A stretch of DNA of 35,111 bases from an uncultured Treponema sp. (GTDB lineage Bacteria > Spirochaetota > Spirochaetia > Treponematales > Treponemataceae). How positions within the stretch are numbered: the stretch's first letter is position 1; every line of letters starts with the position of its first letter. Positions 996 through 8,108 of the stretch are shown here, piece by piece. Below the pieces are notes generated by a model. It saw only the letters and a program-made list of their open reading frames with translations. It did no database searches and was not told the DNA's origin. The DNA is taken from contig CAMJNC010000006.1 of assembly GCA_946407195.1 (NCBI GenBank), forward strand, positions 1 through 35,111, read 5' to 3'. The position numbers and the translations under genes were made by a program.

Positions 996-1018
996 ATTAT
1001 AAAGGTTATAAGTGCCAA
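996..1018 (-). promoter_or_regulatory. Promoter-like TTGGCAC / TATAAT pair upstream of the methyltransferase
   Basis: On the minus strand TTGGCAC (1018-1012) is followed by a perfect TATAAT (1001-996). The distance from TTGGCA to TATAAT is 11 nt, too short for a normal -35/-10 pair, so TTGGCAC may be an operator rather than a -35 box. The same arrangement with a nearly identical spacer occurs upstream of the gene at 1429-2127. TATAAT itself is a good -10. Confidence 0.5.
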
Positions 1019-1029
1019 ATAATGACACT
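1011..1029. promoter_or_regulatory. Dyad AGTGCC-N7-GACACT, candidate operator
   Basis: The imperfect dyad AGTGCC AAATAAT GACACT sits just upstream of the -10 box at 996-1001. A near-identical element with the same 7-nt spacing lies in front of the WYL regulator gene (6470-6488), suggesting a common binding protein. This is an inference from two sites only. Confidence 0.4.
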
Positions 1030-2157: not shown

Positions 2158-2180
2158 ATTATAAAGGTCAAGGGTGCCAA
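2158..2180 (-). promoter_or_regulatory. Promoter-like TTGGCAC / TATAAT pair for the 1429-2127 gene
   Basis: TTGGCAC (2180-2174) and TATAAT (2163-2158) on the minus strand, again 11 nt apart, with the shared spacer end ACCTT. The twin of the element at 996-1018. The start codon at 2127 is about 31 nt downstream with its own Shine-Dalgarno sequence. Confidence 0.5.
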
Positions 2181-2215
2181 GGAACGGCATTGTGAAATAA
2201 TTTTATTTTAGTCTC

Positions 2216-2476: not shown

Positions 2477-2508
2477 GATTATAGTATATCACACTTTAGT
2501 GCCAAGGA

Positions 2509-3735
2509 TTACCACCCCATCGCAAGCAGCCACAATGGAATTGCTTTATCTGCCGGGTAGTCTGTATTATCGCGAATTACCAAATCGGACTGTTTAAGTA
2601 CCTTATCCTTACCGCCTACTTCAATTTTGATTTTTGGCGAGTTTCCGAGATTAAGAGTGCCGGTATTTTTCATAATTACAAAATCTCCATCAGTTTCGTT
2701 CTTACATGCATTTACAGTGTAGCCTGATTCCTGCAGTAAAACAGTGACAAAGGCCTCCCGCATATTTCCGGCACTTCCTTGTAAAACAGAATACAAGCAC
2801 GGATCTGCAAAGAAAAGTTTTGCCCCGGCACTTTTTGCCTTTGTGTCATTTGGATAGCGGATAATACGAACAACGCCAACTGCTTCCATAACTTCTAAAA
2901 GCTGATAAAGCTTATCGGCACTCACATTCCAGTCTGCACATAAAGAGCGAACCTGGAGTCGCGGAATTGATGACATTGAAAGAGATCCTACAACTGCACT
3001 CATCAGGCGAATATTATCCTCGGTAATCTGAGGAACAAAAAATGGTACATCAGAATTAAGAGTCTTATCCAGGACAGCCAGACTTCGGCTCTCATAATCA
3101 CCTTCTGTATAGAACGGACGAGTTCCATAAGTCTTATATTTTTCAAACAAATCAAGAATAGAAGCTTCCGGCTTTACAGGCAGAGAATCTCCCTTTTTCA
3201 TTTTAAAAGGATTTATTGTATTATAGACTTCTCCTGTCTCGATATACAAAAACTCTCGGAACGACATAATCGGCATATGAACAAAAACATAACGTCGCGA
3301 AAGGTCTGCTGTTCCACTTCTTAAAACTAAAGCGGAAGAATCACTTGCCCAAACATATCGGTCTGGATAATCATCATACAAAGATTTTAACTGAGCGCTC
3401 CAGTTCCTGGCAAAATGAACTTCATCAATTATTACACCTTCATACCCCTGCATAAAAACAGCCGCAATAACATCATAAAGATTAAGAGCAGTCAGACGCG
3501 GATTATCCGCAGAAAAATAAAGCATCTTTTTGCCACTCTGGTTTGCATGATGCAAAAGAAAGGTTGATTTTCCTATTCCCCGCAAACCAGTAAGAATCAT
3601 ATTTTTTGGAAGTTTATTTTTTGAGTTAAATTCAGTTGTCCAAAGACGAATTCGCTGAGGCATAGCAGCAAGCTTGCGCTCCATAATCGTCTTTAAATTT
3701 TCAATGAGTTCTAAAAGATTTTCTGTGTTATCCAT
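2509..3735 (-). CDS. AAA ATPase, AAA_14/DUF4143 type
   Basis: Predicted ATP-dependent DNA-associated or effector ATPase of the widespread AAA_14 plus DUF4143 family; its cellular role is not established. Walker A is GLRGIGKST (residues 50-58), Walker B is GVIIDEVH (100-107), and the family block DSSALVLRSGTADLSRRY follows near 132-149, then the typical MSFREFL. The C-terminal part has a winged-helix-like region and a nuclease-fold-like end with D-x-x-IMK and IEVGGKDK, compatible with a degenerate PD-(D/E)xK core. Length (408 aa) fits the family. The ATG at 3735 has no Shine-Dalgarno sequence; TTGACA stands 17 nt from TACCAT, itself 6 nt from the ATG, so translation may be leaderless. A concentric dyad lies upstream. 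Confidence 0.8.
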   Translation of the reverse strand: MDNTENLLELIENLKTIMERKLAAMPQRIRLWTTEFNSKNKLPKNMILTGLRGIGKSTFLLHHANQSGKKMLYFSADNPRLTALNLYDVIAAVFMQGYEGVIIDEVHFARNWSAQLKSLYDDYPDRYVWASDSSALVLRSGTADLSRRYVFVHMPIMSFREFLYIETGEVYNTINPFKMKKGDSLPVKPEASILDLFEKYKTYGTRPFYTEGDYESRSLAVLDKTLNSDVPFFVPQITEDNIRLMSAVVGSLSMSSIPRLQVRSLCADWNVSADKLYQLLEVMEAVGVVRIIRYPNDTKAKSAGAKLFFADPCLYSVLQGSAGNMREAFVTVLLQESGYTVNACKNETDGDFVIMKNTGTLNLGNSPKIKIEVGGKDKVLKQSDLVIRDNTDYPADKAIPLWLLAMGW

Positions 3736-3845: not shown

Positions 3846-4046
3846 TTATTCTTCCAGACTTTCGCCGTGCTGTTCTTCTATTTCGGCGATTTCGGTCTGG
3901 AGGGTTTTGTCCAGGGCTTCGTCGAAGCCGGTGAGGGCGGCAAAGGGTAAAAAGATTTTGGCGCGCTGAGAAAGGGGCATGCGGTTGGGCAGGGAGTCGC
4001 GGGTCCAGTTGTGGTTTATGATATCGTCGTAGTTTTTCTCGTTCAT
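3846..4046 (-). CDS. Small Y-family polymerase partner (YolD-like, UmuD analogue?), 66 aa
   Basis: The protein has the signature YDDIINHNW...MPLSQRAKIFLPFAALTGFDEAL, found in short proteins encoded beside UvrX-type Y-family polymerases in Firmicutes. Such YolD-like proteins have been proposed to act like UmuD as polymerase partners; that link is family knowledge plus inference. The acidic tail (EIAEIEEQHGESLEE) is helical. I start at ATG 4046 (MNEKNYDD). The longer frame to 4091 only translates the palindromic repeat (WLSLSKPP) and is not credible. It lies 46 nt downstream of the polymerase gene stop, in the same operon, with the repeat in between. Shine-Dalgarno is weak. Confidence 0.7.
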   Translation of the reverse strand: MNEKNYDDIINHNWTRDSLPNRMPLSQRAKIFLPFAALTGFDEALDKTLQTEIAEIEEQHGESLEE

Positions 4047-4059
4047 GGTCGTCTCACAT

Positions 4060-4084
4060 GGTGGTTTCGACAGGCTCAACCACC
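4060..4084. repeat. Palindromic repeat, short variant
   Basis: GGTGGTT (4060-4066) and AACCACC (4078-4084) form the stem around TCGACAGGCTC. Same outer arms as the copies at 28124, 29565 and 29631 but without the inner stem. It fills the gap between the polymerase gene and the small partner gene, where it could form a hairpin in the mRNA. Confidence 0.75.
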
Positions 4085-4092
4085 GCAGCAAT

Positions 4093-5478
4093 TTAAGCTT
4101 TGTGGCCTCCTATCTGGACGTTGCGGTCGCGGGTGGTGGCGCCTTCTTCGAAATTAGTTCCCTTGAGGATGGCATTCTTGCCGTACTTTCTGATTATCTC
4201 AAGGCGGGCTTTCTGCAGGCTGTCTTCCTTGTGCTGACTTGTGCCGCCCTCCTCTGTTTCCACTTCGTCAAAGAGGCCCGGCTGTCTCTGGCTTGCATTT
4301 TTGATATTGTTTGCGGTGATATTGATGCGGCGGTAGAGCCAGGCGGGTTTTGCTATCTTTTCGAAAATTGAAACAAAGCCTTCAACTATCTGCTTTGAAG
4401 AATTGGTTTCGTCTCCAAAGCTCCAGCTGCCGTGGGCGGGCTTTGGCATTTCGCGGCCGTAATAGTCGCGCACTACTTCGCCGTCGAAGCCGGGAACATA
4501 AAGGCTTTCCTGGTCGTAACCGGCGTGGAGGGTAATTGAATCTGTAACAAGATTTTTCTTATAGAGGTCCAGGGCTAAAAGCTCGGCCATTTCGCGCACT
4601 ATGATTTTTGCCTTTTCGTAATCGTAAGGCTCGTGAAGCACCTGGCCGCTTCCAAGGCTCTTTGCTTCTGACTTGTAATTTTTGATATCTTTCATGCCCA
4701 CTGGCTCTATGCCCCAGGCATGATCTATCAGAATCTCTGCATCAATTCCAAACTCCTTATACAAAAGCTCGGGGTTCTGCAAGGAGGTGCGGGCTATGTC
4801 TCCCATTGTGCGGATAAAATATTTTTCGAGCCGGCGGGCTGTTGCGCGGCCTACCCTCCAGAAATCTGTAAGCGGCTGATGGGTCCAGAGCTGGCGGCGG
4901 AAGCCTTCAACGTCCAGCTCTGCTATGCGAACTCCGTCCTGATCTGCGGGAATATGCTTTGCAACAATATCCATGGCGGCCTTACACAAAAAAAGATTTG
5001 GCGCGATTCCGGCTGTGGCTGTGATTCCGGTTTCTGCAAGTACCTCGCGAATTACCTTTACGGCAAGCTCGCGGGCTGTCAGCTTATAAAAAGAAAGATA
5101 GCTTGTGGCGTCTATAAAAACTTCATCTATCGAATAAACGTGAATATCTTCGGGCGCAAAGTAACGAAGGTAAACATTATAGATTCGTGTGGAATACTGA
5201 ATGTAAAGGGCCATACGGGGAACTGCAACTATGTAGTCCAGTTCTTTGCCGGTCTGGCGTTTGATTTCGCGGGCCTTGGCTTCTACCTCGAAAAGGCGGG
5301 AGCGGCCGCTGAGCCCGTAGGCTTTGAGCGCGGGTGTAACGGCCAGGCAGATGGTTTTGCTGGTGCGGCTTTTGTCGGCAACTACGAGGCGCGTTGTAAG
5401 CGGATCTAAGAGGCGTTCGCGGCATTCAACTGAGGCGTAGAAGGATTTGAGGTCAATGGCGATGTAGGTTCGCTCCAT
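4093..5478 (-). CDS. Y-family DNA polymerase (UvrX/DinB-UmuC type)
   Basis: Error-prone polymerase that copies past damaged template bases. Catalytic metal ligands are visible as D9 (YIAIDLKSFYASVE) and D118/E119 (VYSIDEVF). The palm/fingers region, a helix-hairpin-helix thumb (FWRVGRATARRLEKYF, about residues 205-220) and a little-finger domain follow. The protein ends with GTNFEEGATTRDRN and QIGGHKA, the characteristic C-terminus of the Firmicutes-type polymerases; it carries a possible clamp-binding motif QPGLFDE near 405. At 461 aa it is full length. ATG 5478 begins 1 nt after the stop of the WYL regulator, so the two are translationally linked. It differs clearly from the UmuC encoded on the other side of the regulator. 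Confidence 0.92.
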   Translation of the reverse strand: MERTYIAIDLKSFYASVECRERLLDPLTTRLVVADKSRTSKTICLAVTPALKAYGLSGRSRLFEVEAKAREIKRQTGKELDYIVAVPRMALYIQYSTRIYNVYLRYFAPEDIHVYSIDEVFIDATSYLSFYKLTARELAVKVIREVLAETGITATAGIAPNLFLCKAAMDIVAKHIPADQDGVRIAELDVEGFRRQLWTHQPLTDFWRVGRATARRLEKYFIRTMGDIARTSLQNPELLYKEFGIDAEILIDHAWGIEPVGMKDIKNYKSEAKSLGSGQVLHEPYDYEKAKIIVREMAELLALDLYKKNLVTDSITLHAGYDQESLYVPGFDGEVVRDYYGREMPKPAHGSWSFGDETNSSKQIVEGFVSIFEKIAKPAWLYRRINITANNIKNASQRQPGLFDEVETEEGGTSQHKEDSLQKARLEIIRKYGKNAILKGTNFEEGATTRDRNVQIGGHKA

Positions 5479-5479
5479 T

Positions 5480-6460
5480 TTATTTCAGCCTCTTCGCCAT
5501 CTTTTTTACTTCATCAGCATAAAGTTTTTTCAGCTCGGGAGGATTGAGCACTGTAACGGCCGCGCCAAAACGCAGGCACCAGAAGAGAGTTTCCTGTATC
5601 TGATTTGACTCAAAACTAAGGGAAACGGTGCCGTCTTTATTCTGTTTGCACTTCTGATTTTTATGCCAGGTTCTTTCGAGGATATAGGTGTTGATGGATT
5701 TATCGAAAAGAAGTTCAATTTTCTGCGGCCTGGTTTCGTTGTTCCAGATTCCAAAGTTAGGATCTATATGAACCTTCTGCTGATAATTTTTGTCGTATTT
5801 AAACTCAGCTCCAAGCTCAATGTTTTTCATTCGGGCAAGGGTAAAGGTTGCAAACTTTTCGTGCTTTGGTGAATAGCCCAGAATATACCAGTCGCCTTTC
5901 TGATTATAAATCTTATACGGATAAAGCTCGTGCGGAACATAATCTGTTGCCTTTATTGAACGATAATCAAACTTCATGATTTTATGAAGCTTGGTTGCCT
6001 TAAAAACATCATTAAAAGTTTCTTCTGCAATAACCGGAATGGGGTCTGCAATAAACTCTACGTCGTTTGTAAAACTGGACTGCACTTCTACCTGATTCGG
6101 AAGCATCTGCGACAGTGTGTCATAAACCTTTTCTATTGTCTTTTTAAGCGGAGTATTATTATAGCGTTCCATCAAAGGAAGGATTCCTGTTACTGCAAAC
6201 ACTTCGCTTTCTGTAAGCATCATGTTCTTTACAAAATAAGTGTTGTCGCTGTAATAGTAGCCCTTGCGCATACGGTCATATTCAATGGGCGCGTTGTAAT
6301 AGATTTTGAGTTCATCAATATCGCGAAGGATTGTGCGGCGGGAAACTTCCAGCTCCTTCATGAGTCGTTCAACACTAGGGTATCCCAGATTCTGGATAGC
6401 CTGCTCAATCTTAAATAATCTTAATGGTTTTGTGTGATTTTCCCTGATTTTTGCACTCAT
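5480..6460 (-). CDS. HTH/WYL-domain transcriptional regulator
   Basis: Predicted DNA-binding regulator. Residues about 12-65 form a DeoR-type helix-turn-helix (SVERLMKELEVSRRTILRDIDELK) and the middle to C-terminal part is a WYL domain, with the namesake motif as GDWYILGY and following FTLARMKNIE. WYL proteins often bind single-stranded or damaged nucleic acid and control DNA repair or defence genes (for example PafBC). It heads an operon with the polymerase at 4093-5478 and faces the umuD/umuC-like pair, so control of both mutasomes is the natural inference. A textbook promoter TTGACA-N17-TATAGT lies at 6524-6496, and a dyad (6470-6488) covers the leader, consistent with autoregulation. Confidence 0.88.
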   Translation of the reverse strand: MSAKIRENHTKPLRLFKIEQAIQNLGYPSVERLMKELEVSRRTILRDIDELKIYYNAPIEYDRMRKGYYYSDNTYFVKNMMLTESEVFAVTGILPLMERYNNTPLKKTIEKVYDTLSQMLPNQVEVQSSFTNDVEFIADPIPVIAEETFNDVFKATKLHKIMKFDYRSIKATDYVPHELYPYKIYNQKGDWYILGYSPKHEKFATFTLARMKNIELGAEFKYDKNYQQKVHIDPNFGIWNNETRPQKIELLFDKSINTYILERTWHKNQKCKQNKDGTVSLSFESNQIQETLFWCLRFGAAVTVLNPPELKKLYADEVKKMAKRLK

Positions 6461-6469
6461 AATTTTTTC

Positions 6470-6488
6470 AGTGCCTTTCTATGACACC
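6470..6488. promoter_or_regulatory. Dyad AGTGCC-N7-GACACC in the WYL gene leader
   Basis: Lies 10-28 nt upstream of the WYL gene start, between promoter and ATG, overlapping its weak ribosome-binding site. Shares 11 of 12 arm positions and the 7-nt spacing with 1011-1029. Good position for a repressor. Confidence 0.45.
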
Positions 6489-6492
6489 TAAA

Positions 6493-6540
6493 ACTACTAT
6501 ACTTTAATACAGAATAACTGTCAAACATTTTTATAGTAGT
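6493..6540. promoter_or_regulatory. Inverted repeat ACTACTATA ... TATAGTAGT in the divergent control region
   Basis: Perfect 9-bp arms at 6493-6501 and 6532-6540, 30 nt apart. The left arm contains the -10 box of the WYL promoter; the right arm abuts the Shine-Dalgarno of the umuD-like gene. Either a pair of symmetrical -10 elements or the half-sites of one operator. Confidence 0.5.
6496..6524 (-). promoter_or_regulatory. Sigma-70 promoter of the WYL/polymerase operon
   Basis: TTGACA (6524-6519), 17-nt spacer, TATAGT (6501-6496) on the minus strand. Best sigma-70 match in the window; expected start about 6489, giving a leader of roughly 29 nt that contains the dyad at 6470-6488. Confidence 0.75.
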
Positions 6541-6549
6541 GAGGTAATT

Positions 6550-6855
6550 ATGATTACAGGATTTCCAAGCCCGGCGCAGGGTTATGAACAGCATCAGATT
6601 GATTTTAACTCATACATCATTAAGCATCCTTCTGCAACTGTGGTTATGCGGATTGAAAGCTCGCACTACACTAACATGGGAATTTATTCTGGGGATCTGA
6701 TTGTTATTGACCGCGCCAAAAAGATAAACCGCAATTCTCTTGTGGTTTACGAATCGGAAGGGCATTTTGTTCTGGGAAGGGTTTACACCATAAGGTGTGA
6801 AACAATTATCACGGGCGCCATAACTCATGTGCTGCATACGGTAAAAGATTTATGA
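6550..6855 (+). CDS. umuD: UmuD'-like protein lacking the cleavable arm and the catalytic dyad
   Basis: Partner subunit of the UmuC polymerase (Pol V). E. coli UmuD is cut between C24 and G25 to give active UmuD'. This 101-aa protein begins MITGFPSPA, so its G4 aligns with G25. The alignment continues without gaps over IDFN, HPSATVV and SGDLIVID. The catalytic Ser60 position is His39 (SSHYTNMG instead of GDSMIDGG) and the Lys97 position is Gly76 (HFVLGRV). No upstream start exists: the in-frame stop at 6505 leaves only 14 codons without ATG, GTG or TTG. GAGG lies 5 nt before the ATG. It overlaps umuC by 4 nt. It therefore appears to be made directly in the processed form and cannot self-cleave. 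Confidence 0.85.
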   Translation: MITGFPSPAQGYEQHQIDFNSYIIKHPSATVVMRIESSHYTNMGIYSGDLIVIDRAKKINRNSLVVYESEGHFVLGRVYTIRCETIITGAITHVLHTVKDL

Positions 6856-8108
6856 TTTTACATGCTGATGGAAATGCTTTTTTCGCTTCCTGCGAGCAGA
6901 TTTATCGGCCGGATCTTCGTGGAAAGCCAGTGGCTGTTCTTTCTAATAATGATGGAATTATTGTCGCGCTGAATAAAGAAGCAAAGGCCTGTGGCATAAA
7001 ACGCGGCGACCCGTACTTTAAGGTAAGGAACATCTGCGACTATAAGGGTGTTACAATTTTTTCGAGCAACTACACTTTGTATGCTGATATCAGCCGGCGC
7101 ATTACCTCCATTTATATGGAATATGCCCCGGATATTGAATGCTACTCCATCGATGAATCTTTTTTATTTTTTGATGACTGCAACTGGAGTATTTCTGATT
7201 ACGAAGAAATTGGCCGGGAACTGAAAGACCGTGTTTACAGGGAAGTTGGCATTCCTATTTGCGTTGGTGCCGGCCCTACAAAAACTCTGGCAAAGCTTTA
7301 CAACAAAAAAGCAAAGGAGCATGACGGCGTTTTTGTATATAATCCGGATTCAGTAGACGCGCTGCTTGCGGAAACGGACTGTGCAACCATCTGGGGAATT
7401 GGCCCGGCACGTGCAAAAAAGCTTGAGCTTCATGGAATTAAAAATGCGCTGATGCTTAAGCACATGCCGCTGTGCGACGCAAAAAGACTTCTTACCTCAC
7501 AAGGCTTTGAAACTGTTATGGAGCTGAACGGCAAGCGCTGTATGGATAAAATCACCCGTCAGAAAAAAGACATAATTACTTCGAGCCGTCAGTTTTCAAA
7601 AAAGGTTTATGACCTTGCAACGCTTGAATGCGCCCTTGTTGAATACACGGAACTTGCCGTAGAAAAACTTCGTAAACAGAACTCGGAATGTAAGATGATT
7701 CAGATCTGCATTTCCACCTGCAACTATTATTCTGATAATCCGGATGAGCAGTATTCAAACGCAGCCTTTGCAGAGCTTCCGCGCCTCACCTCTTACACTC
7801 CGGATTTAGTAAATGCTGCCCGGCTGATTCTCCCTTACATATACCGCCAGGGCTACGGCTACAAAGTAATTATGGTTTCGCTGTTAGACATTATGCCCGC
7901 ACAGTATCAGGGCTGGCTTTGGATAGACCCCAAAGAAGACATAAAAAAACGAAGGCTCATGGAAGCAGTAGACCAGATAACAAACAGCTACGGCCGCCGC
8001 TCCATCACCCTTGCAAAATTCTGGACTAAAACCGGCTGGGAAATGAAACGCGAATTTTTAAGCCCAAACTTTACTACAGACATAAACTGTGCGCCGTGTG
8101 TTTTGTAA
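6852..8108 (+). CDS. umuC: UmuC, DNA polymerase V catalytic subunit
   Basis: Y-family translesion polymerase of the proteobacterial UmuC type. Metal-binding residues are D6 (HADGNAFFASCE) and D101/E102 (CYSIDESF), the same numbers as in E. coli UmuC. The thumb helix-hairpin-helix is TIWGIGPARAKKLELHG (about 180-196), followed by the little finger (SSRQFSKKV) and the C-terminal segment with YGRRSITLAKF. The length of 418 aa is typical. It overlaps the umuD-like gene by ATGA, giving tight translational coupling. The gene downstream is convergent, so this operon has two genes only. Together with the polymerase at 4093-5478 the island encodes two different translesion polymerases. Confidence 0.95.
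   Translation: MILHADGNAFFASCEQIYRPDLRGKPVAVLSNNDGIIVALNKEAKACGIKRGDPYFKVRNICDYKGVTIFSSNYTLYADISRRITSIYMEYAPDIECYSIDESFLFFDDCNWSISDYEEIGRELKDRVYREVGIPICVGAGPTKTLAKLYNKKAKEHDGVFVYNPDSVDALLAETDCATIWGIGPARAKKLELHGIKNALMLKHMPLCDAKRLLTSQGFETVMELNGKRCMDKITRQKKDIITSSRQFSKKVYDLATLECALVEYTELAVEKLRKQNSECKMIQICISTCNYYSDNPDEQYSNAAFAELPRLTSYTPDLVNAARLILPYIYRQGYGYKVIMVSLLDIMPAQYQGWLWIDPKEDIKKRRLMEAVDQITNSYGRRSITLAKFWTKTGWEMKREFLSPNFTTDINCAPCVL

Follow-up and report, generated by a model that had tools for sequence, protein, structure and literature searches.

The window, i.e., the whole stretch of 35,111 nucleotides from an uncultured rumen Treponema sp. that was analysed here (assembly GCA_946407195.1, contig CAMJNC010000006.1), encodes a umuD'C operon that is faced by a divergent gene for a WYL-type regulator and a second Y-family polymerase. 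The features are as follows, numbered from the first letter of the window:

996-1028, minus strand: WYL-type promoter box, before a D12 DNA adenine methyltransferase gene
2158-2190, minus strand: WYL-type promoter box, before the ORF 1429-2127
2483-2515, minus strand: WYL-type promoter box, before a short macro-domain-like fragment (2363-2476)
3846-4046, minus strand: small protein of 66 aa, downstream of the Y-polymerase, resembling by eye the N-terminal arm of YolD/YqjX
4093-5478, minus strand: second Y-family polymerase, UvrX/YqjW-like, adjoining the WYL gene on the same strand
5480-6460, minus strand: WYL regulator, 326 aa, divergent, HTH, WYL and WCX domains
6471-6487, plus strand: 17-bp palindrome GTGCC-N7-GACAC, proposed WYL operator, at about -39 to -23
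6498-6503, plus strand: -10 element TATACT, exactly 10 nt after the palindrome, with no -35 hexamer at 17-nt spacing
6541-6544, plus strand: Shine-Dalgarno sequence GAGG, 5 nt before the umuD' ATG
6550-6855, plus strand: umuD', 101 aa, ATG start; arm-less UmuD with Ser60 replaced by His, Lys97 replaced by Gly and the C-terminal hairpin region deleted
6852-8108, plus strand: umuC, Y-family polymerase of full length (418 aa) with IMS, IMS_C and DUF4113 domains and the catalytic motif YSIDE kept

In E. coli, UmuD is converted to UmuD' by a RecA-stimulated self-cleavage that uses the catalytic dyad Ser60/Lys97. The ORF 6550-6855 encodes a UmuD homolog, as it matches PF00717 with 31.6 bits (Pfam cut-off 23.3) and finds E. 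coli UmuD and UmuD' as its best matches among solved structures (phmmer, E 5e-12); it misses the cut-off of the NCBIfam model PRK10276 for the UmuD subfamily (73 vs 110 bits). The AlphaFold model of the protein is weak (pLDDT 59) and too weak for detailed claims, and a Foldseek search with this weak model ranked UmuD' first (1ay9, 1umu). The initial annotation had read the ORF as a directly encoded, catalytically dead UmuD'. The alignment with E. coli UmuD bears this out: the N-terminal sequence MITGFPSPA falls on C24-G25, so that the protein starts at the cleavage point and the 24 N-terminal residues of E. coli UmuD are absent, and His39 and Gly76 take the positions of Ser60 and Lys97, respectively. 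The alignment had also been described as free of gaps, which holds to about residue 80; beyond this point a deletion of approximately 18 residues in the C-terminal hairpin region had been overlooked. This deletion might weaken folding or dimerisation of the protein. It is confirmed that a UmuD' form is directly encoded at 6550-6855, with its start at the cleavage point and with the dyad absent.

Upstream of the umuD' ATG an in-frame stop codon is found at 6505-6507, and the 14 codons in between contain, as had been claimed and as inspection by eye verified, no ATG, GTG, TTG or CTG. A non-canonical upstream start was ruled out by the stop at 6505, the complete lack of NTG codons and an upstream sequence that is unconserved among the homologs. 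Moreover, the predicted -10 element at 6498-6503 places the start of transcription at about position 6510, i.e., downstream of the stop, and an N-terminal arm would thereby be excluded on that transcript. An inverted repeat in this region (6493-6501/6532-6540) was taken as a chance occurrence; comparison by eye with a single WYL-type relative (L057) did not show it there.

Among 195 sampled genomes of the family Treponemataceae, 57 contain a match with an E-value of at most 0.01, the weakest of these matches being not all UmuD. The DNA of most matches was taken, distinct sequences were aligned and 61 distinct Treponemataceae loci were examined. Both catalytic residues are kept in none of the 61 loci; a serine at the aligned Ser60 position without the lysine is present in L018, L056, L024, L054 and L089, and the lysine without the serine in L069. 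Nearly all homologs start with M-x-TGFPSPAQGYE or a near variant thereof, the exceptions being a few that are broken or cut by contig ends and the divergent L089 and L090, which lack the motif. The comparison with UmuD of other spirochetes, which the initial annotation had suggested as a check, showed that most UmuD proteins found in the rest of the Spirochaetota have the canonical form, possessing the arm, a cleavage site of the Ala-Gly or a similar type, the serine and the lysine, and that an arginine occupies the Lys97 position in two of the sequences outside the family (L171, L172). Distant dyad-less UmuD proteins also occur in other Spirochaetota (L165, L167, L178), perhaps as separate losses, and their long branches make their places in the tree unsure. 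In a UmuC tree of 68 rows, built with a quick method and with SH-aLRT as its sole support measure, the 41 Treponemataceae UmuC rows with a dead UmuD partner form one branch (SH-aLRT 100). The reading of a directly encoded UmuD' with a dead dyad and a skipped proteolytic step is supported and extends to a clade of the Treponemataceae.

The loss of the catalytic residues, the deletion and the existence of a broken copy, found in T. bryantii B25 and in the closely related G090, might be taken to mark a decaying, non-functional relic of UmuD. However, the pairwise dN/dS of umuD' homologs amounts to 0.02-0.14 (pairs with measurable dS and some amino-acid change), i.e., the gene is under purifying selection and is maintained, and on these values the pseudogene reading was rejected. 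Furthermore, G4, P6-S7-P8-A9 and Q10-G11-Y12-E13 of the arm are invariant across 25 homologs and an intact umuC follows directly downstream, making decay scarcely credible. The strongly conserved N-terminal stretch is the part that enters UmuC in E. coli. Taken together, the clade, the selection and the N-terminal conservation show that the dyad-less UmuD' is a maintained, derived state.

In the window, umuD' and umuC overlap by 4 nt and form an operon, and umuC lies directly downstream of umuD' in most relatives. In L066 and L067, an arm-less umuD' without a downstream umuC is opposed by an operon encoding a small protein, a UvrX-like Y-polymerase and an XRE-S24 repressor. These two loci are in line with a UmuD' that has left pol V for another partner such as the neighbouring Y-polymerase, but the placement of umuC in most loci and the full-length, DUF4113-containing UmuC of the window make such a change of partner very unlikely, and UmuC is kept here as the partner of UmuD'. 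The Y-polymerase and the 66-aa protein of the window (3846-5478, minus strand), the latter without any match in Pfam or NCBIfam, are possibly a second mutasome as described in PMC12926913, beside umuD'C. One viral contig (L206) carries an arm-less Treponema-type umuD' whose S24 and umuC neighbours are of the same kind; a phage-borne origin of the system was not adopted, as this single contig is too little. In an unverified phage scaffold (L181, MT836424.1), one ORF seems to carry tandem UmuD domains, the first dyad-less and the second with the dyad.

The initial annotation had argued that a UmuD' made without cleavage must be controlled by transcription. This is supported by the neighbouring genes, namely a WYL regulator with a distinctive promoter in the window and, in most relatives, an S24 repressor that is intact. 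Classification of the 61 distinct upstream regions gave 35 with a divergent S24 repressor, 6 with a WYL-type box and 20 with neither. The WYL protein of the window scores above cut-off for PF08279, PF13280 and PF25583, i.e., it has an HTH-WYL-WCX architecture, and it shows a distant similarity to chains of PafBC and DriD (E about 1e-4). The six WYL-type umuD regions, including L016, share GTGNC-N6-TGRCAC followed 10 nt further on by TATACT or TATAAT. The motif TGRCAC-N10-TATAMT occurs five times in the 2.73-Mb draft genome, four of these in the window, compared to two occurrences of the reversed pattern used as control; it was first spotted by eye in the same regions, and its genome counts do not constitute an independent test. 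The palindrome was searched alone in 10 genomes, since the fuller pattern already contains the -10 element. This resulted in 32 sites, some of them close homologs of each other, with TATAMT at offset 10 in 14, at offset 15 in 2 and at offset 21 in 1. The palindrome thus stands at a fixed spacing from a -10 element in 14 of 32 sites, and the WYL protein would be its binder. In agreement with this assignment, all checked genomes with the box at umuD (G000, G103, G100, G090, G189, G180) encode an ortholog of the WYL protein (81-92% identity), which is located on another contig in G189 and G180. The association of box and WYL protein is not strict, as G093 has a WYL ortholog beside an S24-type umuD'C.

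The box also occurs apart from an intact umuD'C. The copies at 996-1028, 2158-2190 and 2483-2515 on the minus strand are possibly a local regulon, and in L100 (G000:C32) the same box and a paralog of the ORF 1429-2127 come immediately after another WYL gene (353 aa). In T. bryantii B25 and G090 (L057/L096, L111), the WYL gene and the box are kept next to the broken umuD'C, and an additional S24-type copy is present elsewhere.

The arrangement resembles that of DriD from Caulobacter and PafBC from mycobacteria, which are likewise HTH-WYL-WCX proteins with an operator at a fixed distance from the -10 element. The binding site of DriD is an N7-spaced palindrome, which overlaps the -35 position at a fixed distance from the -10 element, and DriD activates a divergent operon (PMC12340889); PafBC uses a -26 element and single-stranded DNA (PMC11804915). 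The N7 spacing, the overlap with the -35 position and the divergent target operon are shared with DriD; the half-site differs, being GTGYC here and ACGAC in DriD, and the target in the window is umuD'C, unlike those of DriD and PafBC. By analogy, the WYL protein may also sense single-stranded DNA. Some characterised WYL proteins act in the opposite sense, as BrxR and CapW are reported to be repressors (PMC9122601, PMC9122588). The WYL protein might accordingly repress umuD'C, with the palindrome overlapping the -35 hexamer (TTGGCA/ATGACA) of a sigma-70 promoter, a second -10 element at 16-17 nt and derepression upon damage. L057 and the window contain a -35/-10 pair spaced by 16 nt, with scores of 11/12 and 10/12, respectively, and a second -10 element in some copies, e.g., TTGGCA-16-TATAAT, fits a normal promoter with a WYL repressor. 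However, this second element is poor in L005, L006 and L016, all six umuD boxes retain TATACT/TATAAT at offset 10 and this offset dominates the scan with the palindrome alone, in which boxes before other genes are included. Repression by the WYL protein is an unlikely reading that nevertheless deserves serious weight; activation is preferred.

A further candidate for control of umuD'C is LexA acting via an unrecognised box, the WYL gene being incidental. The genome has an intact LexA gene with the dyad, and a LexA site upstream of the humD-type gene is annotated in the records of P1 and phiKO2. Against LexA, no clear LexA-like palindrome shared with the recA or lexA upstream regions was seen, in a weak test that yielded no LexA box. 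Moreover, the conserved intergenic element is the WYL-type box and it is found together with WYL orthologs, so that control by LexA is improbable, more so than repression by the WYL protein.

In most relatives the divergent gene encodes a protein resembling LexA/CI-like XRE-S24 repressors with dyad, Ala-Gly site and LexA-like spacing, whereas no XRE-S24 repressor adjoins umuD'C of the window, where the WYL gene stands in its place. In 39 divergent S24 proteins, a GDSM serine is followed by a lysine 36 residues later and preceded by Ala-Gly 38-39 residues before. The S24-type umuD promoters of the genus are mostly of the form TTGACA-17-TATCAT/TATAGT, ending 4-10 nt before the ATG, and an AT-rich palindrome was seen upstream by eye. 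In many S24-type loci (e.g., L008:1501-1863), the distance from the predicted -10 element to the ATG is just 4-10 nt, suggesting a leaderless or near-leaderless mRNA. Small protein and Y-polymerase are followed by the WYL gene facing umuD'C in the window, and by the S24 repressor facing the arm-less umuD' in L066 and L067. As judged from gene order, this swap of regulators is the clearest sign that both may share the same job. The cultured rumen Treponema strain C6A8 has both types.

We consider it likely that the window encodes a UmuD' of a pol V-type mutasome directly and that gating occurs at transcription, via the WYL protein here and via an S24 repressor in most relatives. As anatomy, conservation, clade and selection show, umuD' is translated without the inhibitory arm, the Ser/Lys dyad having been lost as self-cleavage no longer occurs. 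From the biology of UmuD', the protein should dimerise and load on the downstream-encoded UmuC once it is made; by the same analogy, it should form UmuD'2C and support mutagenesis. A UmuD' that is active as soon as it is made would place the gating at transcription. The palindrome, spanning about -39 to -23, is most likely the binding site of the divergent WYL protein, which would recruit RNA polymerase to a promoter without a standard -35 element in the manner of DriD and PafBC and is probably activated by sensing single-stranded DNA. In most relatives the XRE-S24 repressor may do the same job; because it keeps the dyad and the Ala-Gly site, the self-cleavage switch appears to have moved from UmuD to the repressor. 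The 20 of 61 loci with neither regulator count against this scheme. As the draft of the host genome is 75% complete, another umuD or an S24 repressor could be encoded elsewhere.

It had also been claimed that mutagenic synthesis is no longer gated by RecA at the protein level. This may hold for the cleavage step. However, beyond cleavage, catalysis by E. coli pol V still requires RecA and ATP (PMC12926913), and the probable target of RecA in the S24-type relatives is the repressor. The wider proposal that gating by RecA at the protein level was lost family-wide, with the lineage of the window relying on a WYL activator that senses single-stranded DNA and dispenses with LexA-family self-cleavage, is advanced tentatively and falls somewhat short of probable.

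Pol V is the textbook example of a mutator that is restrained by a proteolytic timer. In this lineage of the Treponemataceae, the timer was lost in the protein and the polymerase subunit was kept under strong selection, while similar loci are coupled in some cases to a WYL regulator and in others to a repressor with the look of a self-cleaving protein. With these loci, the purpose of UmuD cleavage and the restraint of SOS mutagenesis by transcription alone become testable.

Compared with known systems, the protein shares with E. coli UmuD/UmuD' of pol V the fold family, the post-cleavage motif of the N-terminal arm and the operon with umuC. Unlike E. coli UmuD, it lacks the N-terminal 24 residues, Ser60/Lys97 and the hairpin region and would not cleave itself. 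A directly encoded UmuD' is a known principle with a precedent in HumD of phage P1, described in PMC7092418 (citing McLenigan 1999) as a short, already activated UmuD. P1 HumD begins with MGFPSPAADY and has, in the alignment, a histidine at Ser60 with Lys97 kept, as do N15 gp26 and the HK140 homolog; phiKO2 Gp23 has a cysteine at Ser60. This group shares the GFPSPA start and the absence of the arm with the protein of the window, which misses the cut-off of the NCBIfam HumD model NF051876 (56.6 vs 120 bits). However, the HumD proteins keep Lys97 and the C-terminal hairpin region, both of which are missing here, and they are phage-carried, whereas the umuD' described here and its own umuC belong to a bacterial contig. 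A search covering part of the literature found no description of a lineage-wide dyad-less UmuD'. What is new is the chromosomal, lineage-wide and fully dyad-less form, paired with its own UmuC.
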